From: Trueperaceae bacterium
Lineage (GTDB): Bacteria; Deinococcota; Deinococci; Deinococcales; Trueperaceae
Direction: 5' to 3'
Assembly (NCBI GenBank): GCA_007130355.1
Contig: SLSQ01000050.1
Location: forward strand, 1 to 37,211
DNA length: 37,211 nt
Shown here: in pieces, positions 8,054-20,457 of the stretch
Position numbering within the stretch: position 1 is the first letter of the stretch
Layout of the letters: every line of letters starts with the position of its first letter
Notes under the pieces: generated by a model
What the model saw: only the letters and a program-made list of their open reading frames with translations
Databases searched by the model: none
What the model was told of the DNA's origin: nothing
Position numbers and translations under genes: made by a program

Positions 8054-8130
8054 CGGGGTGTAGCGCAGCCTGGTAGCGCACTTGACTGGGGGTCAAGTGG
8101 TCGCTGGTTCAAATCCAGTCACCCCGACCA
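8054..8130 (+). tRNA. tRNA-Pro (anticodon GGG), encoded CCA
   Basis: 77 nt. Acceptor CGGGGTG/CACCCCG, anticodon arm CTTGA-CTGGGGG-TCAAG, T arm GCTGG-TTCAAAT-CCAGT (with one mismatch), then ACCA. Confidence 0.95.
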
Positions 8131-8258: not shown

Positions 8259-8561
8259 GTGCCGTCGTTCCGGTTCGAGCTGTACGTCGCAGGCGATGCG
8301 CCCCGGTCCCGCCTGGCGATCCGGGCGCTGACGGACCTCTGCGAGGAACACCTTCCCGGACGCTACGAACTGTCCGTGATCGACGTGACCGAACACCCGG
8401 AGCTCGCCGAGCGCGCCCACGTCCTGGCGACGCCGACGCTGCTGCGGCTGAGCCCGACGCCGCGGGTCCGGATCATCGGCGATCTCCGGCTGACCGCGAA
8501 GGTGCTGGCGGGCCTCGGCCTCGACGGCGCGACCGCGAACGACGATGGGGAGGTACCGTGA
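8259..8561 (+). CDS. kaiB: KaiB-like circadian clock/timer protein
   Basis: MPSFRFELYVAGDAPRSRLAIRALTDLCEEHLPGRYELSVIDVTEHPELAERAHVLATPTLLRLSPTPRVRIIGDLRLTAKVLAGLGLD carries the KaiB hallmarks LYVAG, VIDV, ILATPTL-like and RRIIGDL-like. Confidence 0.93.
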   Translation: MPSFRFELYVAGDAPRSRLAIRALTDLCEEHLPGRYELSVIDVTEHPELAERAHVLATPTLLRLSPTPRVRIIGDLRLTAKVLAGLGLDGATANDDGEVP

Positions 8562-10090
8562 GCGACCGAGCAGCACCGGACCGTACGTCCGCCCGGCGAT
8601 CGCCCAGCGGCATCCCTGGGCTCGACCTCGTGACCAAGGGCGGCTTGCCCGCCGGACGGTCGGTGGTCGTGGCCGGTACTTCCGGGAGCGGCAAGACCGT
8701 GTTCGCGTCCCAGTTCCTCTCGGCCGGGATCCGCGACCACGACGAGCCCGGCGTGTTCGTCACCTGCGAGGAGCCGCCGGCCGGGATCCGGGACAACGTC
8801 GCGAGCTTCGGGTGGGACGTCGCCCGCTGGGAGCGGGACGGCGCCTGGCGCTTCGTCGACGCCACCCGTCAGCTCGACGGCATGCCGGTCCACGCCGGCG
8901 GCTACGACCTGACGGCGCTGCTGGCCCGGATCGAGGACGCCGTCGCCCGCGTCGGGGCACGCCGCGTCGTCGTCGACTCCCTGGACGCCCTCTTCACGCA
9001 GTTCGCGGGCGACGCCACCTTCCGGCACGAGCTGCACCGCGTTCTCGGCCTGCTGAACTCGTTGGGCGTGACCACCGTGCTCACCGCCGAGCGGGACCAC
9101 GACTACGGACCCAACTCCCGGCGCGGGGTCGAGGAGTTCGTCGCCGACAACCTGATCCTGCTCCGCAACGTCCTGAGCTCGGAGCGTCGTCGGCGCTCGC
9201 TCGAAGTGGTGAAGTTCCGCGGCGCGACGCACGATCGGGGCGAGTTCGGGTTCTCGATCACCCCGGACGGGATCTCGGTCATTCCCCATCTCGACATCCG
9301 GGACGACCGCGCGATGTCGGTCGAGCGCGCGTCGCTGGGGAACGCCGACCTCGACGCCATGTGCGGCGGCGGCGTCTTCCGGGATTCGGTGACGCTCGTG
9401 TCGGGCGCGGCCGGCAGCGGCAAGACGCTGCTCACGGCCTCGTTCGTGGCGGCGGGCGTCGCGGCGGGCGAACGGTGCCTGGTGTTCGCCTTCGAGGAAC
9501 GTCGCGAGCAGTGGCACCGCAACGCGCAGGGCTGGGGCTTCGACTTCGTCCGAATGGAGCGGGACGGCCTGCTCGACATCGTGAGCGACTACCCCGAGGT
9601 CGCGACCCTCGAGGACCACCTGGTGGCGATCACGTCGGCGATCGAGGCGTTCGGACCGCAGCGCGTGGCCGTCGACAGCCTTTCGGCGCTCGAGCGCGTG
9701 GCCACTCCGGACGCGTTCCGCAAGTTCGCCGTGAGCCTCAGCGCCTACCTGAAGCACCACGGGATCACCAGCCTGTTGACGTCGACCACGCCCACCTTCC
9801 TCGGTGGCGCGTCGCACACCGAGGCCCACCTGTCGACGGTGACCGACCTGATCATCCTGCTGCGCCACGTCGAGGTCGGCGGAGCGCTGCAGCGGGGCCT
9901 GACGGTCCTCAAGATGCGGGGGTCCCGCCACGACCACGACGTCCGCGCGTTCTCGGTGGACGCGCACGGGATGCATCTGGGAGCTCCGTACGACCGCACC
10001 TTCGGCCTGCTGGAGGACGGGCCGAGCGCGCACCCGCGCACGACCCCCGACGGATCCAGGGCGCCGGAGGCGGACGAACCTGATCCATGA
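8558..10090 (+). CDS. kaiC: KaiC-like double P-loop ATPase/autokinase
   Basis: GTG overlaps the kaiB stop (GTGA). CI Walker A is GTSGSGKT with CEE; CII Walker A is GAAGSGKT with FEE. The phosphosite segment SHTEAHLSTVTDLIILLRHVE and KMRGSRHDHDVR are present. Confidence 0.94.
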   Translation: MSDRAAPDRTSARRSPSGIPGLDLVTKGGLPAGRSVVVAGTSGSGKTVFASQFLSAGIRDHDEPGVFVTCEEPPAGIRDNVASFGWDVARWERDGAWRFVDATRQLDGMPVHAGGYDLTALLARIEDAVARVGARRVVVDSLDALFTQFAGDATFRHELHRVLGLLNSLGVTTVLTAERDHDYGPNSRRGVEEFVADNLILLRNVLSSERRRRSLEVVKFRGATHDRGEFGFSITPDGISVIPHLDIRDDRAMSVERASLGNADLDAMCGGGVFRDSVTLVSGAAGSGKTLLTASFVAAGVAAGERCLVFAFEERREQWHRNAQGWGFDFVRMERDGLLDIVSDYPEVATLEDHLVAITSAIEAFGPQRVAVDSLSALERVATPDAFRKFAVSLSAYLKHHGITSLLTSTTPTFLGGASHTEAHLSTVTDLIILLRHVEVGGALQRGLTVLKMRGSRHDHDVRAFSVDAHGMHLGAPYDRTFGLLEDGPSAHPRTTPDGSRAPEADEPDP

Positions 10091-10935
10091 GCCGACGGAC
10101 CGATGCCCCCGGCCCCGCGCAACTCAGGGCCATCTACCAGCGGATGACGGACGGCATCCTCATCGTGGGCGACGACGGCACCATTCTGGCGGCCAACCCT
10201 GCGGCGCGGCGCATGCTCCCCGACGGTGGATCCGGGCCGACCGGCGCCGTCTTCGGCTTTCCCATCGCCGACCGGAACGCCGTCGTGATCGAGCTCCTCG
10301 GCGCGGGCGGCAGGGTGCGGACCGCGGAGATGCGCGTGTCGACCCTCGACTGGCACGGCCGGCCGGCCCGGCTCCTGATCCTGCGCGACATCACCGAACA
10401 GACGGAACTGATGCACCGGCTGCACCTCGCGGCCAACTACGATCCGGTCACCGGCCTGCCGAACCGGCTCCTCTTCGAGGAGTACATCGGCCAGGCGATC
10501 CGCGAGGCGCGCCGCCACGGCCATCGGGTCGGCCTGCTGTTCGTCGACTTCGACGGCTTCAAGCGCGTCAACGACACCTTCGGGCACGACGTCGGCGACC
10601 TCCTGCTCCGTCGGATCGGACGCCGGCTGCACCGGGCGCTGCGAGAGGGGGACAGCGTGGCGCGCTTCGCCGGCGACGAGTTCCTGATCACGCTGACGCA
10701 GGTGAAGGACGTGCACGAGGCGAGCGTCGTCGCCGCCAAGGTGCTCGCGGCGTTCGAGGCTCCCTTCGAACTGGACGAGCACACCGTCGCCACCACGGCG
10801 AGCATCGGCGTCGCCTTCTTTCCCGACGACGCGGCGGACGCCTCGGAGCTGCTCCGTCGCGCCGACGGCGCCATGTACCGCGCCAAGGCCGAGGGCGGAG
10901 ATCGGTTCCGGACCTGTCTCGCCTCCGACGAATGA
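10087..10935 (+). CDS. PAS-GGDEF diguanylate cyclase (AGDEF variant, RxxD I-site)
   Basis: ATG overlaps the kaiC stop (ATGA). N-terminal PAS domain. GGDEF domain has DPVTGLPNRLLFEEYI, DFDGFKRVNDTFGHDVGD and REGDSVARFAGDEF. Confidence 0.93.
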   Translation: MSRRTDAPGPAQLRAIYQRMTDGILIVGDDGTILAANPAARRMLPDGGSGPTGAVFGFPIADRNAVVIELLGAGGRVRTAEMRVSTLDWHGRPARLLILRDITEQTELMHRLHLAANYDPVTGLPNRLLFEEYIGQAIREARRHGHRVGLLFVDFDGFKRVNDTFGHDVGDLLLRRIGRRLHRALREGDSVARFAGDEFLITLTQVKDVHEASVVAAKVLAAFEAPFELDEHTVATTASIGVAFFPDDAADASELLRRADGAMYRAKAEGGDRFRTCLASDE

Positions 10936-11074: not shown

Positions 11075-12043
11075 ATGTTCTCGCACATCCTGGTTCCACT
11101 CGACGGGTCGAAGCTCGCGGAACGCGTGCTTCCGCACGTCCGCGCGTTCGCTCGCCTGAACGGCGCCCGCGTCACCCTCGCCCACGTCCTCGAACCGCCC
11201 ACCCTGGCCGGTCGGCGCGAGCCGACCGATCCGGTCCGGTGGCAACTCGCGGCGCACGAGGCCGAGCGGTACCTCGCCGACGTGCGCGACCGGCTCGGGA
11301 GCGACGTCTCTTCGGCCGAGTGCCGGATGTTCGAGGGGCGAACGGCGTCCAACATCGTCGGGTTCGCCCAGTCGGAAGCGGTCGACCTGATCGCGCTCGG
11401 CAGCCACGGCGAGGGCGGCCTGACGGGCTGGAACCTCGGCGCGACCGTGCACAGCGTCGCGCTGCACGCCCGAACGAGCGTGCTGATGGTGCGTGCCTAC
11501 GGGGCCGCCCCGAGCGCGGACGCACCGTCGCGCTACCGGCGCCTGCTGGTCCCGCTCGACGGCTCGCGCCGTGCCGAGATCGTCCTGCCGACCGTCCACG
11601 GACTCGCCGACGGCCACCGGTGCCGTCTGATGCTGGCGCACGTCGTCGAGCGCGCACCCAGCGCGAGCCGCTTGCCGCTTCCGGAAGCGGAAGCGGGCCT
11701 CGAGCGACGGTTCCTCGAGATGCGGCGACGGCGAGCCGAGCGGTACCTCGCCACGGTCCGAGAAGAACTTGCGGGCGTCGGCCACGACGTGGACGCGCGC
11801 ACGGAGATCGACGGCGACACCGTCGCCCGGCTCCACGACCTGGCGGACGCCGAAGACGCCGATCTCGTCGTCGTCAGCGCCCACGGCGCGTCCGAGAGCC
11901 ACCGGTGGCCGTTCGGCAGTTCGGTGCTGAACCTCCTCGTGTACGGCACCACGACGCTCCTCGTGGTCCAGGACCTGCACGGGCACGAACTGGTGCCCAG
12001 CGCCGCAGAGATCGCGGCCCAGGAACGGCACGGCCACGGATGA
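11075..12043 (+). CDS. Tandem universal stress protein (two UspA domains)
   Basis: Shine-Dalgarno GGAGGGG. MFSHILVPLDGSKLAERVLPHVRAFA and YRRLLVPLDGSRRAEIVLPTVHGLA repeats, with Usp nucleotide-loop patterns GSHG-N9-GA and SAHG-N9-GSS. Confidence 0.92.
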   Translation: MFSHILVPLDGSKLAERVLPHVRAFARLNGARVTLAHVLEPPTLAGRREPTDPVRWQLAAHEAERYLADVRDRLGSDVSSAECRMFEGRTASNIVGFAQSEAVDLIALGSHGEGGLTGWNLGATVHSVALHARTSVLMVRAYGAAPSADAPSRYRRLLVPLDGSRRAEIVLPTVHGLADGHRCRLMLAHVVERAPSASRLPLPEAEAGLERRFLEMRRRRAERYLATVREELAGVGHDVDARTEIDGDTVARLHDLADAEDADLVVVSAHGASESHRWPFGSSVLNLLVYGTTTLLVVQDLHGHELVPSAAEIAAQERHGHG

Positions 12044-15000
12044 GCCACCACGACCGGGCCTCGGGGGACGACGGCCCGGCACGCGACGCACCGCCCGAGG
12101 AGGCCGGAAGGGCGCGCGCGACCGCCCACCCGGTCGTGGCGCGACCGCGCCGTGCGCACCGGGCCGTCCGCCGGTCGGCGCCCCTCCGCGAGCGAATCCG
12201 TGCCGTGTTCGACGCCCTTCCGGTCGAGCCGTCCGCCCTGTCCTCGCGCACGCAGTGGCTCCTCGACAACGACTACCTGATCCTGCGGGCCCTGCGTCAG
12301 ACCGAGGACGACATGCCGCGGGCCTACTACGCGACGCTGCCCACGCTGGCGAACGGCACCCCGCGGGTCGAGGCGCTCGCGGGCGCGATCGTGGCGTGGA
12401 GCGAGCACCGGCTGGACCTGGCGCGGGTACGCCGCTTCGTGGAGGGACACCAGGAGGTGGCGCCGCTCACCCTCGGGGAGCTGTGGGCGCTGCCCACCTT
12501 CCTGCGGATCGTGGCGCTCGAATCGCTCGCCGAAGCGGCTCCGAACGCGCACGAGGCGGCCCGGGTCGAGGTCGAACACGACGAGACGCTGCCGGCGACG
12601 ATCCTGTCCCTGCACGCGCTCGACACGCACGATTGGACCGCGTTCGTGGAGGCCACGAGCCTCATCGAACGTCGCCTCCGCCAGGATCCGGCGGGAGCGT
12701 ACCTCCGCATGGACGAAGCGACGCGCGACCGCTACCGAGCGACCATCGAACGGCTCGCCGTGCGCTCCGGCCGCAGCGAGGAGGCGGTCGCGGCGGAAGC
12801 CGTGGCCCTGGCGAGGTCGGCGGCCGCCCGACCGGACGGGCGCCCCGAACGCGCGCACGTGGGGGCGTACCTGATCGGGTCGGCCGTATCGGAGTTCGAG
12901 CGGACGGTGGGCGCCCCGCCGACGCTCCGCATGCACCTCGAGCGTGGCGCGCGCCGCTGGGCGGCGCCCCTGTACGCGGCGGCCACGTCGCTCCTCGCCG
13001 TCCTCCTGATCGCGGCGACGACGGCCGTCGCGCTCCGTTGGGGCGCGCGCGTCGAGGCGCTGGCCCTGACGGCCGCCGTGGCGGTCCCGGCGTGGGTCGC
13101 GGCGGAGGCCGCGCTGCGCCGGCTGGTGACGCACCTCCTCCCGCCCACGCGGCTTCCGAAGCTCGAGCTTCGCGCCGGCGTGCCGCCCGACGCCCGCACG
13201 CTGGTCGCCGTGCCGGCGCTGTTCACGAGCGAAGCGGGGATCCACGATCTGTTCGCGAGGATCGAGCGGCACTACCTGGGACACCGCGATCCGCGTCTCG
13301 CCTTCGTGGTCCTGGGCGACGTGCCCGACGCCGCCGACCGGGTCGTGCCCGAGGACGCCGCCCTGCTGGACCGGGCCGAGGCCGAACTCGCCGCGCTCCG
13401 GGCCCGGCATCCCGAGGGGCGGTTCCTGCTGCTGACGCGGGAGCGGCGCTGGAACGCGTCCGAGGGCGTCTGGATGGGCTGGGAGCGCAAGCGCGGCAAG
13501 CTCACCGAACTGAACCGGCTGATCGTGCACGGCGTGCGCGGCGGCTTCCTGTTCCACGGCGACCGCGCCGAAGCGTTCGCCGGGTTCCCGTTCGTGATCA
13601 CGTTGGACGCCGATACGGTGCTTCCCCCAGGCAGCGCCTTCCGCCTGATCGGCACCCTCGCGCACCCCCTGAACCGGGCTTCGTTCGACGCGGCGAACCG
13701 TCTGCGGCACGGCTTCACGATCCTGCAGCCCCGGATCGAGGCCCACCCCGACGATGCCGACCGGACCCGGTTCGCACGGCTCTTCTCGCACGGCCGAACC
13801 GTCGATCTGTACGCGCACGCGGTGTCCGAGCCGTACATGGACCTGTTCGGCGAAGGGATCTACGCCGGGAAGGGCATCTACGACGTCGCGGCGTTCGAAC
13901 GCACGGTCGGCGACGTTCCTCCGGAGAACGCGATCCTCAGCCACGACCTGCTCGAGGGCGGGCTGGGCCGCGCGGGCCTCGTGAGCGACGTCGTCGTGCT
14001 CGAGAGCCAACCCCAGCACTACCTCGCCCACGCGCGGCGGCTGCACCGGTGGATCCGGGGCGACTGGCAGCTCCTCCCCTGGGCCGGCCGGCGGGTGCCC
14101 GGCCCCGAAGGACGCGTGCCCAATCCGTTGAGCCATACGGCACGATGGGTGCTTCGGCAGAACCTGGTGCGCAGCCTGCACCCTCCGTCCCTGCTGGCGC
14201 TGTTCGTCGTGGGGTGGACCGTCGCGCCGGGTCCGGCGTGGGCCTGGACCGGGCTCGCGCTCGCCCTCTCGGCCGCACCGTTGCTGCAGGTACCCCGGGC
14301 CCTCGTGCGCCTGGCGCGGCCCCGTCGCGCGGCCCGGCTCCCGCACGCCGCGGATCGGGACCTGCTCCGCTGGGCGGTCGACCTCGCCTTCCTCGCCCAC
14401 GCCGCCTGGGTGGCCGCGGCCGCCGTGACGACCACCCTCTGGCGCCTGCGAGTCTCGCGCCGGCACCTGCTGCGCTGGACGGAGTCGTCGCAGGACGCGC
14501 GGGACGCCTCGCGTCGCCGGAACGCGCTCGCACGCTGGCGTGCCATGAGCGCCGCCCCCCTCGCCGCCACGGTCGTGGGCGCGCTGATGCTCGGGGCGCG
14601 CCCCGAAGCGTGGCCGGTCGCCGTCCCGTTCCTGCTCGCCTGGGCCCTCTCCCCCCAGCTCGCGTACCTCCTGGATCGTCCCGTCCCGATCCAGGACCGG
14701 GCGCTGACCCCGGAACGGCGGCGCTGGCTGGCCACGATCGCGCGGAGGACCTGGCTCTACTTCGAACGGTTCATCGGGCCGGACGATCACTGGCTCCCGC
14801 CGGACCACTTCCAGGAGTCGCCGCGCGGCGAGGTCGCGCACCGCACCTCCCCCACGAACGTCGGGCTGCTGCTCGCGACCACCGTCGGCGCCCACGATGC
14901 GGGCTACCTGGGGGCGCGCGACCTGCTGCTCCGCCTCGGCAACACGTTCGCGACGCTGGACCGGCTGGAACGCCACCGCGGCCACTTCCTCAACTGGTAC

Positions 15001-18000
15001 GACACCCGCACCCTCCGGCCGCTGCACCCGAAGTACGTCTCGACGGTCGACAGCGGCAACCTCCTCGGCCTCCTCGTGGTGGTGCGGCAGGCGTGCCTCG
15101 AGGTCCCGGACGGCACGGTGCTGCGCTGGCGCCGGTTCGACGGCCTCCGCACCCTCGCGGACCTCCTGAAGGAAACGGTGGAGACGCTCGAGGACGACGG
15201 CGAACTCACGCGCTCGATCGTCGCCTTCCGGGAGCGGATCGACCGGACCGAAGGCCGGCCGGAGCGGTGGTCGCCGCTCGTCGACGAGCTGGCGTCGGAG
15301 GCCCTGCCCGAGCTCGAGCGGACCCTCCTGGAGCGCGTGCGTACCGCGGCCGGCGGCGTCGGGCACGAACGACTCGCCGACCTCGGCATCTGGTTGGGGC
15401 GCCTGCAGCAGCAACTGGACACGATGCGGGACGGACGCGACGCCCTGCTCCCGTGGCTCCGGCCCGACGCCCGCGTGTCGGCGCTCGATCCGGTCGTGGA
15501 CGAGATTCCGCTGCAGCTCGCCTTCCGCGACCTGCCCGCGGCGTACCGGACGATCCGCGAGGCGTTGGACGCGCTCGCACCGGCGAACGCCGTGGAGTCC
15601 GCACGCCGGACGCGCTTGCGCTCAGCGCTGGACGCGGCCGACGAGGTCGCCGAGCGTATCCGTCGGGACGCCGATGCGGTCGCGGCGAACGCCGAGAGGA
15701 TCCTGCAGGAGACGCACGTCGACTTCCTGTTCGACACGGAACGAAAGCTGTTCCGCATCGGCTACCACGTCGACGACGACCGCGAGGACGTGCACGCGTA
15801 CGACCTGCTGGCCTCCGAGGCCCGCATCGCCTCCTTCATGGCGATCGCCCTCGACCGGGTGGCGCCCGAGCATTGGCTCCACCTCGGTCGGCCGACGGCG
15901 CTGGTGGACGGTCGGCAGGTGCTCCTGTCGTGGAGCGGCACGATGTTCGAGTACCTGATGCCGACCCTGTTCATGCGCACCCCCGAGCGCAGCCTCCTGG
16001 CGCACGCCTGCCGCACGGCGATCGACCGCCAGATCGCCTTCGGCAGGGCGCACGGCGTGCCCTGGGGAACCTCCGAATCGGGCTACGCGCGCACGGACGC
16101 GCAGGAGAACTATCAGTACCGTGCCTTCGGCGTGCCCGACCTCGCCCTCTCCCACGAGGCGACCGGCCGTCAGGTCGTCGCGCCGTACGCGACGCTGATG
16201 GCGCTGCCGTGGACGCCGCACGAAGCGGCCGAGAACCTCGAGCGGCTGGTCGCGGCCGGAGCCATGGGGCGCTACGGCTTCTACGAGGCCCTGGACTACG
16301 CGCACGCGCGTCTGGCGCCCGGCGAGCGCTACACCGTGGTGCGGTCGTTCATGGTCCACCACCACGGGATGGCCTTCATGGCGCTCTGCAACCTGCTGCA
16401 CGACGGCCGCTTCGTCGAACGCTTCCACGCCGACGCACGGGTCCGGACGCACGAGGTGCTGCTCTACGAGGGCCTCGCGCCGGGCCCGCCCGACGAACGG
16501 ATCGAACGGGACGAACGCACGGAGGATCCGCGACCGCGCTTCCACGCTCCGCCCGTCGAGCCTTGGGAGGTACCGGTCCGCACCCGCAGCCCCGAGGTGC
16601 ACGCCCTCTCCAACGGCCGCTACACCCTCTTCATGAGCAACTCGGGAGCCGGCGCCAGCCGCTGGGAAGGACTGGACCTGACGCGCTGGCGCAGCGACCC
16701 GACCTGCGACGCGTGGGGCCAGTGGATCTACGTCCAGGACCTCGACCTGGACCGGACCTGGTCGGCGACCCCGAAACCGGTCGACGCCCCAGGCCAGCAC
16801 CCGCGGGTGACGTTCCATCCCCACCAGATCACCTTCCACCGTCGGGACGGGGACGTGACCACGCGCCTCGAGGTGATCGTCCCGCCCCAGGACGACGCGG
16901 AGATCCGCCGCGTCACCCTCGTCAACCACGGGGACTCGGTCCGACGCCTGGCCGTGACCAGCTACGGCGAGGTCGCCCTGGCCCCGCACGGCGACGACCT
17001 GCGCCATCCCGCGTTCGCCAAGATGTTCGTCGAGTGCTCGTGGCGCGCCGAGGACGACGGGCTGCTGTTCCGCCGTCGCCTGCGCAGCACGACCGACGCG
17101 CCCGCCTACCTCGTCCACCGTCTGGTCCACGATCGCGGCGCGCACCCGCCGCCGGAGATCGAGACCGACCGGGAACGGTTCCTCGGCCGTCACGGCCACC
17201 CAGGGGATCCCGCAGGACTGCGCGCGACCCGACTCTCGGGCACGCTCGGCGCGACGCTCGATCCGGTGTTCGCCCTGCGCACGCGGGTCGAGATCCCGGC
17301 CCACGCCACCGTGCGCCTGTCGTTCGTGACGGCGGCCGGTGGTTCGGCCCGCACCGTGCTCGACGTAGCGCACCGCTACGGACGCCGGGACCGGATCGAG
17401 GCGGCCTTCCTGGACGCCGCCGCGCGGCAGGGCCAGGTGGCGGCCCAGGTGGGGCTCGACGCGGCCGAGTCGGCCAGCGCGGACCGGCTCCTCTCCCGCC
17501 TGCTCTACCCCGACGCCGCGACACGCTCCGACGCCGCGATCCTGCGGAGCAACGTCTCGGGCCCGTCGGGCCTGTGGGTGCACGGCATCTCCGGCGACCA
17601 CCCGATCGTGCTGCTGCGCCTCCGTACGGAGGAGGACGTCGCCACCGTCCGCACCCTCCTGAAGATCCATCGCCTCTGGCGCAGCCAACGCTTCGTCGTG
17701 GACCTCGTGGTCCTCAACGAACTGGACCGTGGGTACGTCCAGACCACGCGCGACGCGGTCCGGCGGCTCGTCGTCGCCGCTGGCGACGAGGTCTGGCAGG
17801 ACCGGCCCGGCGGCATCTTCCTGCTGTCGTCGGCGCAGTTGGACGAGGCCGGCCGGGTCCTGCTCCAGTCGGCGGCCCGGGTGGTCGTGAACGTCGGCGA
17901 CGGATTCGTGCTCGCTCCGTTCCCGAGCGCCCCGGAGGACGGCCTGCCGGCCCTCGCTCCGTCGCACCACCGGCCCGACGCCGCGCCGGACACGCCTCCG

Positions 18001-20457
18001 CTCCCGCGTCCGACCGACCTTCTGTGCGACAACGGCTGGGGCGGCTTCTCGCCGGACGGCCGCGCCTACGTGACCTACCTGCAGGAGCAGGCGACCCCCG
18101 CGCCCTGGATCAACGTCCTGGCCAACCCGGACTTCGGCTGCCTGATCAGCGAGTCCGGTTCCAGCACGACCTGGTCGGCCAACAGCGGCGAGAACCGGCT
18201 GTCGCCGTGGTCCAACGACCCGGTGGCCGATCCCAGCGGCGAGGTGCTCTACCTGCGCGACGAGGAGACCACCGAGACGTGGACGCCCACCCCGCAGCCG
18301 ATGCCCGGCGGCCTTCCGTACCTCGTGCGCCACGGGCAGGGACGCACCACCTTCGAGCACCGCAGCCACGGCCTCGATCAGCGCATGGAGGTGTTCGTGC
18401 TGGACGACGCTCCGGTCAAGGTCGTCCGCCTGCGCCTCTCGAACCTGCTGACGCGGCCGCGACGCATCACGGCGACGTACTACCTCGAGTGGGTGCTCGG
18501 CCATGCGCGCGAGACCAGCGCCACGAGCGTGATTCCCGAATACGACGCGGACCTGGGGGCGCTGCTGGCGCGCAATCCGTTCCGCGACGCCTACGCCGGG
18601 CAGGTCGCGTTCCTGGCCGGGAACCGGAGCCCGCACGGCGTCACCTCCGACCGTCGGGAGTTCCTCGGTCGCGACGGCAGCACGCGACGGCCGGCGGCGC
18701 TGCGGCGGATCGGCCTGTCGGGCCGCGTCGAGGCGGGAAGCGATCCGTGCGCCGCGCTGCAGCTCCACGTCGACCTGGCGGCCGGCGCGAGCGACGAGGT
18801 CGTGTTCCTCGTGGGGGTGGGCGAGGACCGCGAGGAGGCGAAGGAGCTCGTGCGTCGGCACCGCAGCAGCGAGGCGGTGGCCCTGGGCCTCGAGCGGGTG
18901 ACGGAGGCCTGGGAGCGACGTCTCGGGACGATCCACGTGCGGACGCCCGACCCGTCGATGGACCTGATGCTGAACGGTTGGCTGCTGTACCAGAGCCTCG
19001 CCTGCCGCATGTGGGGCCGGACCGGGTTCTACCAGTCGAGCGGAGCGTTCGGGTTCCGCGACCAGCTGCAGGACTCGATGGCGCTGCTGCACGTCGATCC
19101 GGCCACCGCCCGCGCGCAGCTGCTGGAGGCGGCGCGCCACCAGTTCGAGGAGGGCGACGTGCTGCACTGGTGGCTCCCGCACGAGGGCCGCGGCGTGCGG
19201 ACCCGCATCTCGGACGACCTGGCCTGGCTCCCGTTCGTGACGGCGCACTACGTCGACGGGAGCGGCGACGCGGCGGTCCTGGACGAACGGGTGCCGTTCC
19301 TGCACGCGCCGGAGCTCGGACCGGACGAGCACGAACGTTTCGACCGTTTCCCCGCGACGGACGAGTCGTTCCCGCTCTACGTCCACGCCTGCCGCGCCCT
19401 CGAGCGAGCCGCCACCCAGGGCGCGCACGGCCTTCCGCTGATGCAGGGAGGGGATTGGAACGACGGCATGAACCGGGTCGGGGTCGAGGGACGCGGCGAA
19501 AGCGTGTGGCTGGCCTGGTTCCTGATCGCGACCCTGGAGCGGTTCGCGCCGCTGTGCGACGCGCGCGACGAGCCGCACCGCGCCGAGCGCTACCGTGAGC
19601 AGGCGGGCGCCTACCGACGCGCCATCGAGGCGCACGCCTGGGACGGCGATTGGTACCTCCGCGCCTTCTACGACGACGGTACGCCGCTCGGCAGCCACGC
19701 GGGCGACGACGCGCGCATCGACGCCATCGCGCAGGCGTGGTCGGTGCTGGCGGGACCGACCGACCCGGAACGCAGCGCTCGGGCGATGGCCTCGGTGCAC
19801 GAGCACCTGGTGCGCGACAAGGACGGGCTGGTGCTGCTCCTGGCCCCGCCCTTCGACCGGGGTCGGCACGATCCCGGCTACATCAAGGGGTACCCGCCGG
19901 GCGTACGCGAGAACGGGGGGCAGTACACGCACGCCGCGCTCTGGTTCGCCTGGGCGTGCGCCGCGTCCGGCGACGGAGACCGGGCCCACGATCTGTTCGG
20001 TCGGCTCAACCCGCTGCGGCACGCCGCCGACGCCGCCTCGGCCGCGCGCTACCGGCTGGAGCCGTACGTCGTGGCCGCCGACGTGTACGGGGTCGCTCCG
20101 CACGCCGGCCGCGGCGGCTGGAGCTGGTACACCGGCTCGGCGGCGTGGATGTACCGGCTGGGCGTCGAGGCGATCCTCGGCCTGCGGCGCGAGGGGACGT
20201 CGCTGGCGTTCGAACCGTGCATTCCGGCGGCGTGGCCCGGCTTCGAGATCCGGTACCGCTACGGCGCCACCGAGTACCGGATCCAGGTCGTGAACCCGGA
20301 CGGGGCCACCCGCGGCGTCGTCGGGCTCGAGCTCGACGGCGTCGCTCTGCCCACCCTGCGACTGCCGCTGGTGGACGACGGCGTCGCGCGTTCGGCGATC
20401 GTGCGCATGGGCGCCTCGGGTGCGTCGGGACCGATGGGAACGGCGGGCGCGGCGTAG
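12040..20457 (+). CDS. Cyclic beta-1,2-glucan synthase-like (NdvB/ChvB type) giant glycosyltransferase/GH94 protein
   Basis: ATG overlaps the usp stop (ATGA). About 2805 aa. GT segment has VITLDADTVLPPGSAFRLIGTLAHPLN and RRLHRWIRGDWQLLPW. Duplicated glycan-binding modules each contain LSNGRYT/NSGAGASRWEGL-like or SGSSTTWSANSGENRLSPWSNDP. GH94 segment has GGDWNDGMNRVGVEGRGESVWLAWFLI and GWSWYTGSAAWMYRLGVEAILGLRREG. Confidence 0.93.
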   Translation: MSHHDRASGDDGPARDAPPEEAGRARATAHPVVARPRRAHRAVRRSAPLRERIRAVFDALPVEPSALSSRTQWLLDNDYLILRALRQTEDDMPRAYYATLPTLANGTPRVEALAGAIVAWSEHRLDLARVRRFVEGHQEVAPLTLGELWALPTFLRIVALESLAEAAPNAHEAARVEVEHDETLPATILSLHALDTHDWTAFVEATSLIERRLRQDPAGAYLRMDEATRDRYRATIERLAVRSGRSEEAVAAEAVALARSAAARPDGRPERAHVGAYLIGSAVSEFERTVGAPPTLRMHLERGARRWAAPLYAAATSLLAVLLIAATTAVALRWGARVEALALTAAVAVPAWVAAEAALRRLVTHLLPPTRLPKLELRAGVPPDARTLVAVPALFTSEAGIHDLFARIERHYLGHRDPRLAFVVLGDVPDAADRVVPEDAALLDRAEAELAALRARHPEGRFLLLTRERRWNASEGVWMGWERKRGKLTELNRLIVHGVRGGFLFHGDRAEAFAGFPFVITLDADTVLPPGSAFRLIGTLAHPLNRASFDAANRLRHGFTILQPRIEAHPDDADRTRFARLFSHGRTVDLYAHAVSEPYMDLFGEGIYAGKGIYDVAAFERTVGDVPPENAILSHDLLEGGLGRAGLVSDVVVLESQPQHYLAHARRLHRWIRGDWQLLPWAGRRVPGPEGRVPNPLSHTARWVLRQNLVRSLHPPSLLALFVVGWTVAPGPAWAWTGLALALSAAPLLQVPRALVRLARPRRAARLPHAADRDLLRWAVDLAFLAHAAWVAAAAVTTTLWRLRVSRRHLLRWTESSQDARDASRRRNALARWRAMSAAPLAATVVGALMLGARPEAWPVAVPFLLAWALSPQLAYLLDRPVPIQDRALTPERRRWLATIARRTWLYFERFIGPDDHWLPPDHFQESPRGEVAHRTSPTNVGLLLATTVGAHDAGYLGARDLLLRLGNTFATLDRLERHRGHFLNWYDTRTLRPLHPKYVSTVDSGNLLGLLVVVRQACLEVPDGTVLRWRRFDGLRTLADLLKETVETLEDDGELTRSIVAFRERIDRTEGRPERWSPLVDELASEALPELERTLLERVRTAAGGVGHERLADLGIWLGRLQQQLDTMRDGRDALLPWLRPDARVSALDPVVDEIPLQLAFRDLPAAYRTIREALDALAPANAVESARRTRLRSALDAADEVAERIRRDADAVAANAERILQETHVDFLFDTERKLFRIGYHVDDDREDVHAYDLLASEARIASFMAIALDRVAPEHWLHLGRPTALVDGRQVLLSWSGTMFEYLMPTLFMRTPERSLLAHACRTAIDRQIAFGRAHGVPWGTSESGYARTDAQENYQYRAFGVPDLALSHEATGRQVVAPYATLMALPWTPHEAAENLERLVAAGAMGRYGFYEALDYAHARLAPGERYTVVRSFMVHHHGMAFMALCNLLHDGRFVERFHADARVRTHEVLLYEGLAPGPPDERIERDERTEDPRPRFHAPPVEPWEVPVRTRSPEVHALSNGRYTLFMSNSGAGASRWEGLDLTRWRSDPTCDAWGQWIYVQDLDLDRTWSATPKPVDAPGQHPRVTFHPHQITFHRRDGDVTTRLEVIVPPQDDAEIRRVTLVNHGDSVRRLAVTSYGEVALAPHGDDLRHPAFAKMFVECSWRAEDDGLLFRRRLRSTTDAPAYLVHRLVHDRGAHPPPEIETDRERFLGRHGHPGDPAGLRATRLSGTLGATLDPVFALRTRVEIPAHATVRLSFVTAAGGSARTVLDVAHRYGRRDRIEAAFLDAAARQGQVAAQVGLDAAESASADRLLSRLLYPDAATRSDAAILRSNVSGPSGLWVHGISGDHPIVLLRLRTEEDVATVRTLLKIHRLWRSQRFVVDLVVLNELDRGYVQTTRDAVRRLVVAAGDEVWQDRPGGIFLLSSAQLDEAGRVLLQSAARVVVNVGDGFVLAPFPSAPEDGLPALAPSHHRPDAAPDTPPLPRPTDLLCDNGWGGFSPDGRAYVTYLQEQATPAPWINVLANPDFGCLISESGSSTTWSANSGENRLSPWSNDPVADPSGEVLYLRDEETTETWTPTPQPMPGGLPYLVRHGQGRTTFEHRSHGLDQRMEVFVLDDAPVKVVRLRLSNLLTRPRRITATYYLEWVLGHARETSATSVIPEYDADLGALLARNPFRDAYAGQVAFLAGNRSPHGVTSDRREFLGRDGSTRRPAALRRIGLSGRVEAGSDPCAALQLHVDLAAGASDEVVFLVGVGEDREEAKELVRRHRSSEAVALGLERVTEAWERRLGTIHVRTPDPSMDLMLNGWLLYQSLACRMWGRTGFYQSSGAFGFRDQLQDSMALLHVDPATARAQLLEAARHQFEEGDVLHWWLPHEGRGVRTRISDDLAWLPFVTAHYVDGSGDAAVLDERVPFLHAPELGPDEHERFDRFPATDESFPLYVHACRALERAATQGAHGLPLMQGGDWNDGMNRVGVEGRGESVWLAWFLIATLERFAPLCDARDEPHRAERYREQAGAYRRAIEAHAWDGDWYLRAFYDDGTPLGSHAGDDARIDAIAQAWSVLAGPTDPERSARAMASVHEHLVRDKDGLVLLLAPPFDRGRHDPGYIKGYPPGVRENGGQYTHAALWFAWACAASGDGDRAHDLFGRLNPLRHAADAASAARYRLEPYVVAADVYGVAPHAGRGGWSWYTGSAAWMYRLGVEAILGLRREGTSLAFEPCIPAAWPGFEIRYRYGATEYRIQVVNPDGATRGVVGLELDGVALPTLRLPLVDDGVARSAIVRMGASGASGPMGTAGAA

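Follow-up and report, generated by a model that had tools for sequence, protein, structure and literature searches.

In S. elongatus, the kinase of the KaiC CII domain is held off by a buried A-loop (residues 488–497), and KaiA stabilises the exposed state (PMC6378743, PMC11372060). It was previously shown that Rhodobacter sphaeroides has a KaiB-KaiC hourglass that lacks KaiA, for which an exposed A-loop was predicted and KaiA-independent phosphorylation set by ATP/ADP was proposed, with KaiB aiding the return (PMC10076222). KaiA was also lost in Prochlorococcus MED4, where KaiC has an altered A-loop and phosphorylates without KaiA (discussed in PMC5520375). Synechocystis KaiC3 was thought to be KaiA-independent until the chimeric regulator KaiA3 was found, and the gene order kaiA3-kaiB3-kaiC3 has been reported from some further prokaryotes (PMC11372060). 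Schmelling et al. 2017 described the triad of phosphorylation sites in KaiC3 proteins and predicted KaiA-independent phosphorylation from altered A-loops, and KaiC3 proteins have been shown to phosphorylate without S. elongatus KaiA (PMC5520375). At issue is how simpler KaiBC timers and the self-sustained KaiABC clock are related.

Here, we analysed a stretch of 37,211 nucleotides (the window) from a Trueperaceae bacterium whose draft genome comprises 343 contigs and is 80.7% complete. RNase J of this genome has about 43% identity to that of several phyla and favours none of them. The window carries a kaiB-kaiC operon that continues into a gene for a PAS-GGDEF protein (Table 1); the interval given for KaiC in the preliminary description, 9403–10090, corresponds to the CII half of the gene alone. 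The PAS-GGDEF gene is followed by a gene for a two-domain universal stress protein (11075–12043; Pfam Usp), and a reading frame for a very large glucan synthase/phosphorylase-like protein lies near the kai operon (11239–20457); genome G062 has, in the opposite orientation, a frame for a similar C-terminal part in the vicinity of its own kai operon (near the high end of locus L095). A further protein of the source genome, KaiC2-like but very divergent, ends in a long, charged extension that resembles a coiled coil (G000:C67:26579-27979; L003, L004), and its gene is followed by a KaiB-like thioredoxin-type reading frame. A KaiB-domain search at E ≤ 0.001 found none in this genome besides the window kaiB.

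Table 1. Coordinates of the kai operon, the adjoining tRNA gene and the KaiC elements discussed in the text.
Feature	Position in window	Strand	Description and basis
tRNA-Pro (GGG)	8054..8130	+	ARAGORN; directly upstream of kaiB
kaiB	8259..8561	+	100 aa, GTG start, 4-bp overlap with kaiC; Pfam KaiB PF07689, E 1.3e-23
kaiC	8558..10090	+	510 aa, GTG start, two-domain ATPase/kinase, KaiC3-type; Pfam KaiC PF06745, two stretches, E 2.8e-107
CI catalytic Glu pair E71/E72	8768..8773	+	sequence; invariant in alignment A3
CII catalytic Glu pair E313/E314, then clade-specific R315	9494..9499	+	invariant in A3
Phosphorylation triad T421, S426, T427 (= S. elongatus T426, S431, T432)	9818..9838	+	PDB alignment, homologue alignment; codons 9818-9820, 9833-9835 and 9836-9838
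Degenerate A-loop, residues 478-491 (YDRTFGLLEDGPSA replacing FRxVxGILxGNP)	9989..10030	+	alignment; pLDDT <50 from residue 482
C-terminal peptide, residues 492-510, without KaiC3 tail helix motif	10031..10087	+	alignment comparison
PAS-GGDEF protein, 282 aa	10087..10935	+	Pfam GGDEF, E 7.4e-49; start overlaps kaiC stop (ATGA)

Window KaiC shares 45–47% identity with S. elongatus KaiC (PDB 1tf7, 2gbl, 7s65), together with its fold, catalytic residues and three phosphorylation sites. In a phmmer search against PDB chains, the alignment spanned the length of the protein (E = 1.4e-138), and SHTEAHLSTVTDLIILL of window KaiC matched SITDSHISTITDTIILL of S. elongatus KaiC residue for residue. The cyanobacterial motif given in the preliminary description was correct, as SHT-EAHLS-T in the window aligned with SIT-DSHIS-T in S. 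elongatus, and its further claims of a full phosphorylation triad and of paired Glu residues in CI (TCEE) and CII (FEE) were likewise borne out. CI and CII each carry a P-loop, a Glu pair and a truncated Walker B, and Pfam PF06745 matches the protein twice, which identifies it as a KaiC; KxR is also present in both domains (K219-R221, K452-R454). The structural alignment that had been suggested was run: an AlphaFold model of window KaiC (mean pLDDT 82) superposed on S. elongatus KaiC entries with Z of 45–47 and an rmsd of mostly about 2 Å, most alignments stopping at model residues 476–488.

Among 94 homologues, the equivalents of T426 and S431 were each retained in 92 and that of T432 in 83, with Ser in a further 10; one orthologue from the window clade (L095) has Ser at the T426 place. 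Judged from the alignments, the conservation of the triad and Glu pairs is far beyond chance, yet it is expected from homology and normal for the KaiC family. Intact sites combined with KaiA-independence are already the published expectation for KaiC3 homologues (PMC5520375) and are not special to window KaiC.

Regulation of S. elongatus KaiC depends on KaiA acting through the A-loop and the C-terminal tail, both of which are lost in the window. Across 80 related loci, the sequence after CII carries an A-loop consensus (F-x-x-[VI]-x-G-I-[LIM]-x-G) and, in most cases, a helix with the motif [ED]x(0-3)Rxxx[LM]F beyond it; both elements are missing in window KaiC and in three full-length orthologues. 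A frameshift or assembly error behind the odd C-terminus was ruled out, as three independent genomes lack the same elements. Within the clade, pairwise identity was 70–82% in the CII core but only 17, 25, 8, 42, 8 and 8% over the 12 A-loop columns, compared to a mean A-loop identity of 65% and a minimum of 33% in 718 pairs of relatives with similar CII core identity, so that constraint on this loop has been lost in the clade alone. From residue 482 the AlphaFold model had pLDDT below 50 and no secondary structure, and this part is predicted to be disordered; in a control model of Roseiflexus KaiC (L008) built with the same alignment rows, the A-loop and tail reached a pLDDT of about 60–68 and residues 495–506 formed a helix. 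The peptide beyond the A-loop, whose sequence had been given correctly beforehand, is not conserved within the clade. The preliminary statement that this C-terminus bears no similarity to the A-loop and tail region held for the family consensus and the tail motif but went slightly too far in one respect, since residues 482–490 (FGLLEDGPS) are a weak remnant of the xGILxGNP of relatives.

A scan of genomes yielded the 80 kaiC loci, which were 52–59% identical to window KaiC and came from Chloroflexota, Pseudomonadota, Acidobacteriota, Nitrospirota, Cyanobacteriota, Bacteroidota, Planctomycetota and other phyla. Closer orthologues (68–69%) were confined to the window's own family, where they occurred in 4 of 38 other genomes (one of them partial); none was found in four congeners or in 72 other searched genomes of the class. 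In the tree, window KaiC nested in the KaiC3-type group, apart from KaiC1 and from KaiC2-like rows (branch support 100* for each), and its Ser-Thr pair and T426 equivalent agree with this grouping. Support for the KaiC3 backbone was modest (83), and the exact place of the clade among KaiC3s is unsure because it sits on a long stem and the amino-acid composition of the window row is unusual. Window KaiC differs from the KaiC2 of Rhodobacter sphaeroides, which has two Ser sites and a coiled-coil extension of ~50 residues that makes a dodecamer: it has S426-T427 rather than Ser-Ser and, beyond the A-loop, 19 residues that form no coiled coil and are predicted to be disordered. The Prochlorococcus MED4 protein is a KaiC1 of an independent lineage that keeps a recognisable A-loop.

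We searched for KaiA domains in the window's genome and in the four relatives with orthologues (drafts, 72–96% complete), and PF07688 was absent from all five, whereas it was found in S. elongatus and cyanobacterial relatives as positive controls. Pfam KaiA barely detects divergent KaiA3-like proteins; it was thus rejected as the sole probe and superseded by dedicated profiles, A1 and A2. Profile A1 alone was also rejected as evidence of KaiA3, since many of its matches, including some in the window's genome, were to receiver domains only. KaiA3-like C-terminal domains were scored with A2, run on kai loci and on whole genomes. This search found the domain in nearly all tail-bearing relatives and in none of the five clade genomes, one of which is 96% complete. 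Window KaiC is unlike a KaiA-regulated KaiC in having lost the A-loop consensus and the KaiA-binding segment, and a KaiA or KaiA3 gene was seen in 0 of 5 clade genomes; as all five are incomplete, its absence is probable rather than proven. The earlier proposal of KaiA-independence thereby gains strong comparative support (no KaiA or KaiA3-like domain found, no docking helix, no A-loop consensus), although an unrelated protein could take the role of KaiA. Among the closest described systems, the Synechocystis KaiA3-KaiB3-KaiC3 system (PMC11372060) belongs to the same KaiC subgroup by sequence and tree and shares the T-S-T triad and the adjoining kaiB; the window differs in lacking KaiA3, the tail helix and the A-loop consensus and in having a PAS-diguanylate cyclase in its operon.

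Among KaiC3 relatives, presence of the tail, scored by an objective motif, followed presence of the regulator. A total of 59 loci had both tail and KaiA3-like domain and 22 had neither, while one had the tail only (a draft Microcystis) and two had the domain only, both of these carrying a variant tail, EIEVIRHLF. The Fisher P of 6.6e-17 is too strong because the rows are related; on the KaiC tree the tail state changed seven times, and four of four independent pairs on well-supported branches were concordant with the regulator (sign test 0.125). The association thus appears from these comparisons to be a strong pattern with limited independent evidence, and it was not found in the literature that we searched. 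In most relatives the KaiA3-like gene lies directly upstream of kaiB.

KaiA3-like domains upstream of kaiB were seen in Chloroflexota, Magnetococcales, Nitrospirota, Planctomycetota, Bacteroidota, Acidobacteriota and others (including L121, L122 and L119), and were often fused to a receiver domain; this distribution is broader than the synteny given in PMC11372060. Some genomes (L073, L087) hold two full kai clusters, every cluster with its own KaiA3-like gene, and in these genomes one KaiC of the pair has a deviant A-loop (NIQNI[IV]LG). Eighteen tail-less KaiC3s from several lineages (L018, L019, L023, L027, L028, L036, L039, L040, L042-L044, L048-L050, L057, L065, L066, L085) have an intact A-loop consensus and no KaiA3-like domain in the genome.

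By sequence comparison, then, the catalytic and phospho-acceptor residues are retained, the regulator-linked helix and the A-loop consensus are gone, and searches of the window's genome and its sisters' found neither KaiA nor a KaiA3-like domain. We favour, with somewhat more confidence than doubt, a KaiA-free KaiC3-type KaiBC timer in which no buried A-loop restrains the CII kinase and c-di-GMP is the likely output. S. elongatus KaiC truncated before the A-loop reportedly becomes constitutively phosphorylated (work by Kim et al. in 2008). By analogy with the S. elongatus A-loop and with Rhodobacter KaiC, the kinase of window KaiC would be expected to be on by default and to respond to ATP/ADP. 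The phosphorylation, timing and output that we infer for the window KaiBC would run as follows: lacking a stable A-loop that could be buried, KaiC would by default have an active CII kinase and exchange nucleotide, its phosphorylation would follow ATP/ADP, and KaiB, by binding CI once KaiC is phosphorylated, would bring about the return. The outcome would be an hourglass or metabolic switch, not a self-sustained oscillator, and the co-encoded PAS-diguanylate cyclase would carry the output as c-di-GMP. Overall, the window KaiBC probably acts as a simple timer that senses energy, and not as a full clock.

Clade-specific changes in CII fall at positions conserved in every sampled relative. They include T285A, which affects the P-loop, S315R at the residue that follows the Glu pair (a column that is 100% Ser in relatives) and E389K. 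These changes may lower CII kinase activity, and the predicted kinase is possibly weak; with T285A and S315R beside the active site, kinase activity cannot be assumed. Together with the loss of the C-terminal regulatory parts, they lend some weight to a KaiC that no longer cycles, in which a weak or dead CII kinase would leave a CI-driven ATPase or scaffold that gates, with KaiB, the PAS-diguanylate cyclase or other partners. We regard this as unlikely, since the S426/T427 pair, the Glu pair, the P-loop lysine and KMR are retained in four of four clade KaiCs, which would be unexpected had the chemistry gone. Clustering of clade-specific changes in the A-loop and its contact loops (the 422 loop and the 438–444 loop) was rejected (4/18 compared to 26/211 elsewhere, P = 0.27); the A-loop may thus have been lost through general divergence and not as part of a tuned switch. 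KaiB fold-switch residues were also rejected as support, as 21 of 77 relatives share the Gly that replaces D91 in the clade, and G89 is retained in the window.

Less probable still is continued control by a KaiA-like activator that was missed by the profiles or lies in an unassembled part of the genome, and that the degenerate C-terminus binds in a new way. The genomes are incomplete, KaiA3-like domains are divergent enough to be barely detected by Pfam KaiA, and the Synechocystis KaiC3 history is a precedent (PMC11372060). However, the KaiA3-specific profile drew a blank even in the 96% complete genome, the tRNA-Pro gene occupies the position directly upstream of kaiB where most relatives have the regulator gene, and the C-terminal peptide varies within the clade, unlike a binding site. 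The least probable reading, in our judgement, is that of an ordinary KaiC3 whose A-loop and tail are variable ends lost without functional meaning: end regions vary in many proteins, the tail is absent from eighteen other KaiC3s and clade-specific changes are spread over the whole protein, but in many phyla the tail comes and goes with the regulator gene, and the other tail-less KaiC3s seen still have the A-loop consensus, which is lost only in the window clade, so that both behave as functional elements.

The output assigned to the KaiA-free timer was deduced from the overlapping PAS-GGDEF gene, which is kept in the clade operons: the kaiB-kaiC-PAS-GGDEF order is conserved in four genomes, i.e. 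in all clade operons that were readable, with the same layout in L089, L090 and L095. The downstream gene encodes a GGDEF domain with the active-site motif of a diguanylate cyclase, reading AGDEF, a variant that occurs in active diguanylate cyclases. Five residues ahead of this motif stands REGD, a product-binding I-site. The c-di-GMP made by this predicted cyclase is the likely output of KaiBC. In at least 38 relatives, the gene immediately downstream of kaiC encodes a distinctive PAS domain (FG[FY]P ... AEMRV ... LRDITER; window 10117–10416). It was usually joined to a histidine kinase as effector, and a GGDEF effector was seen in the window clade, Rhodocyclaceae, some Magnetococcales and a Thioalkalivibrio. 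With the same PAS type joined to either effector after kaiC, the unit resembles an output cassette of the kai system whose effector can be exchanged.

A wider scenario, which we advance tentatively and with doubt outweighing confidence, is that KaiC3s of many phyla dock a co-encoded KaiA3-like regulator via a short C-terminal helix, and that the window clade discarded regulator, docking helix and A-loop together, leaving an unrestrained, energy-following KaiBC timer wired to c-di-GMP. The clade is a natural loss experiment, in which the catalytic core was kept and KaiA control was removed at the regulator, the dock and the loop. The tail motif predicts which bacterial KaiC3s have a KaiA-like partner, and reading about 15 residues could sort KaiBC systems outside cyanobacteria into KaiA3-type and KaiA-free ones, a division that is testable with purified proteins.
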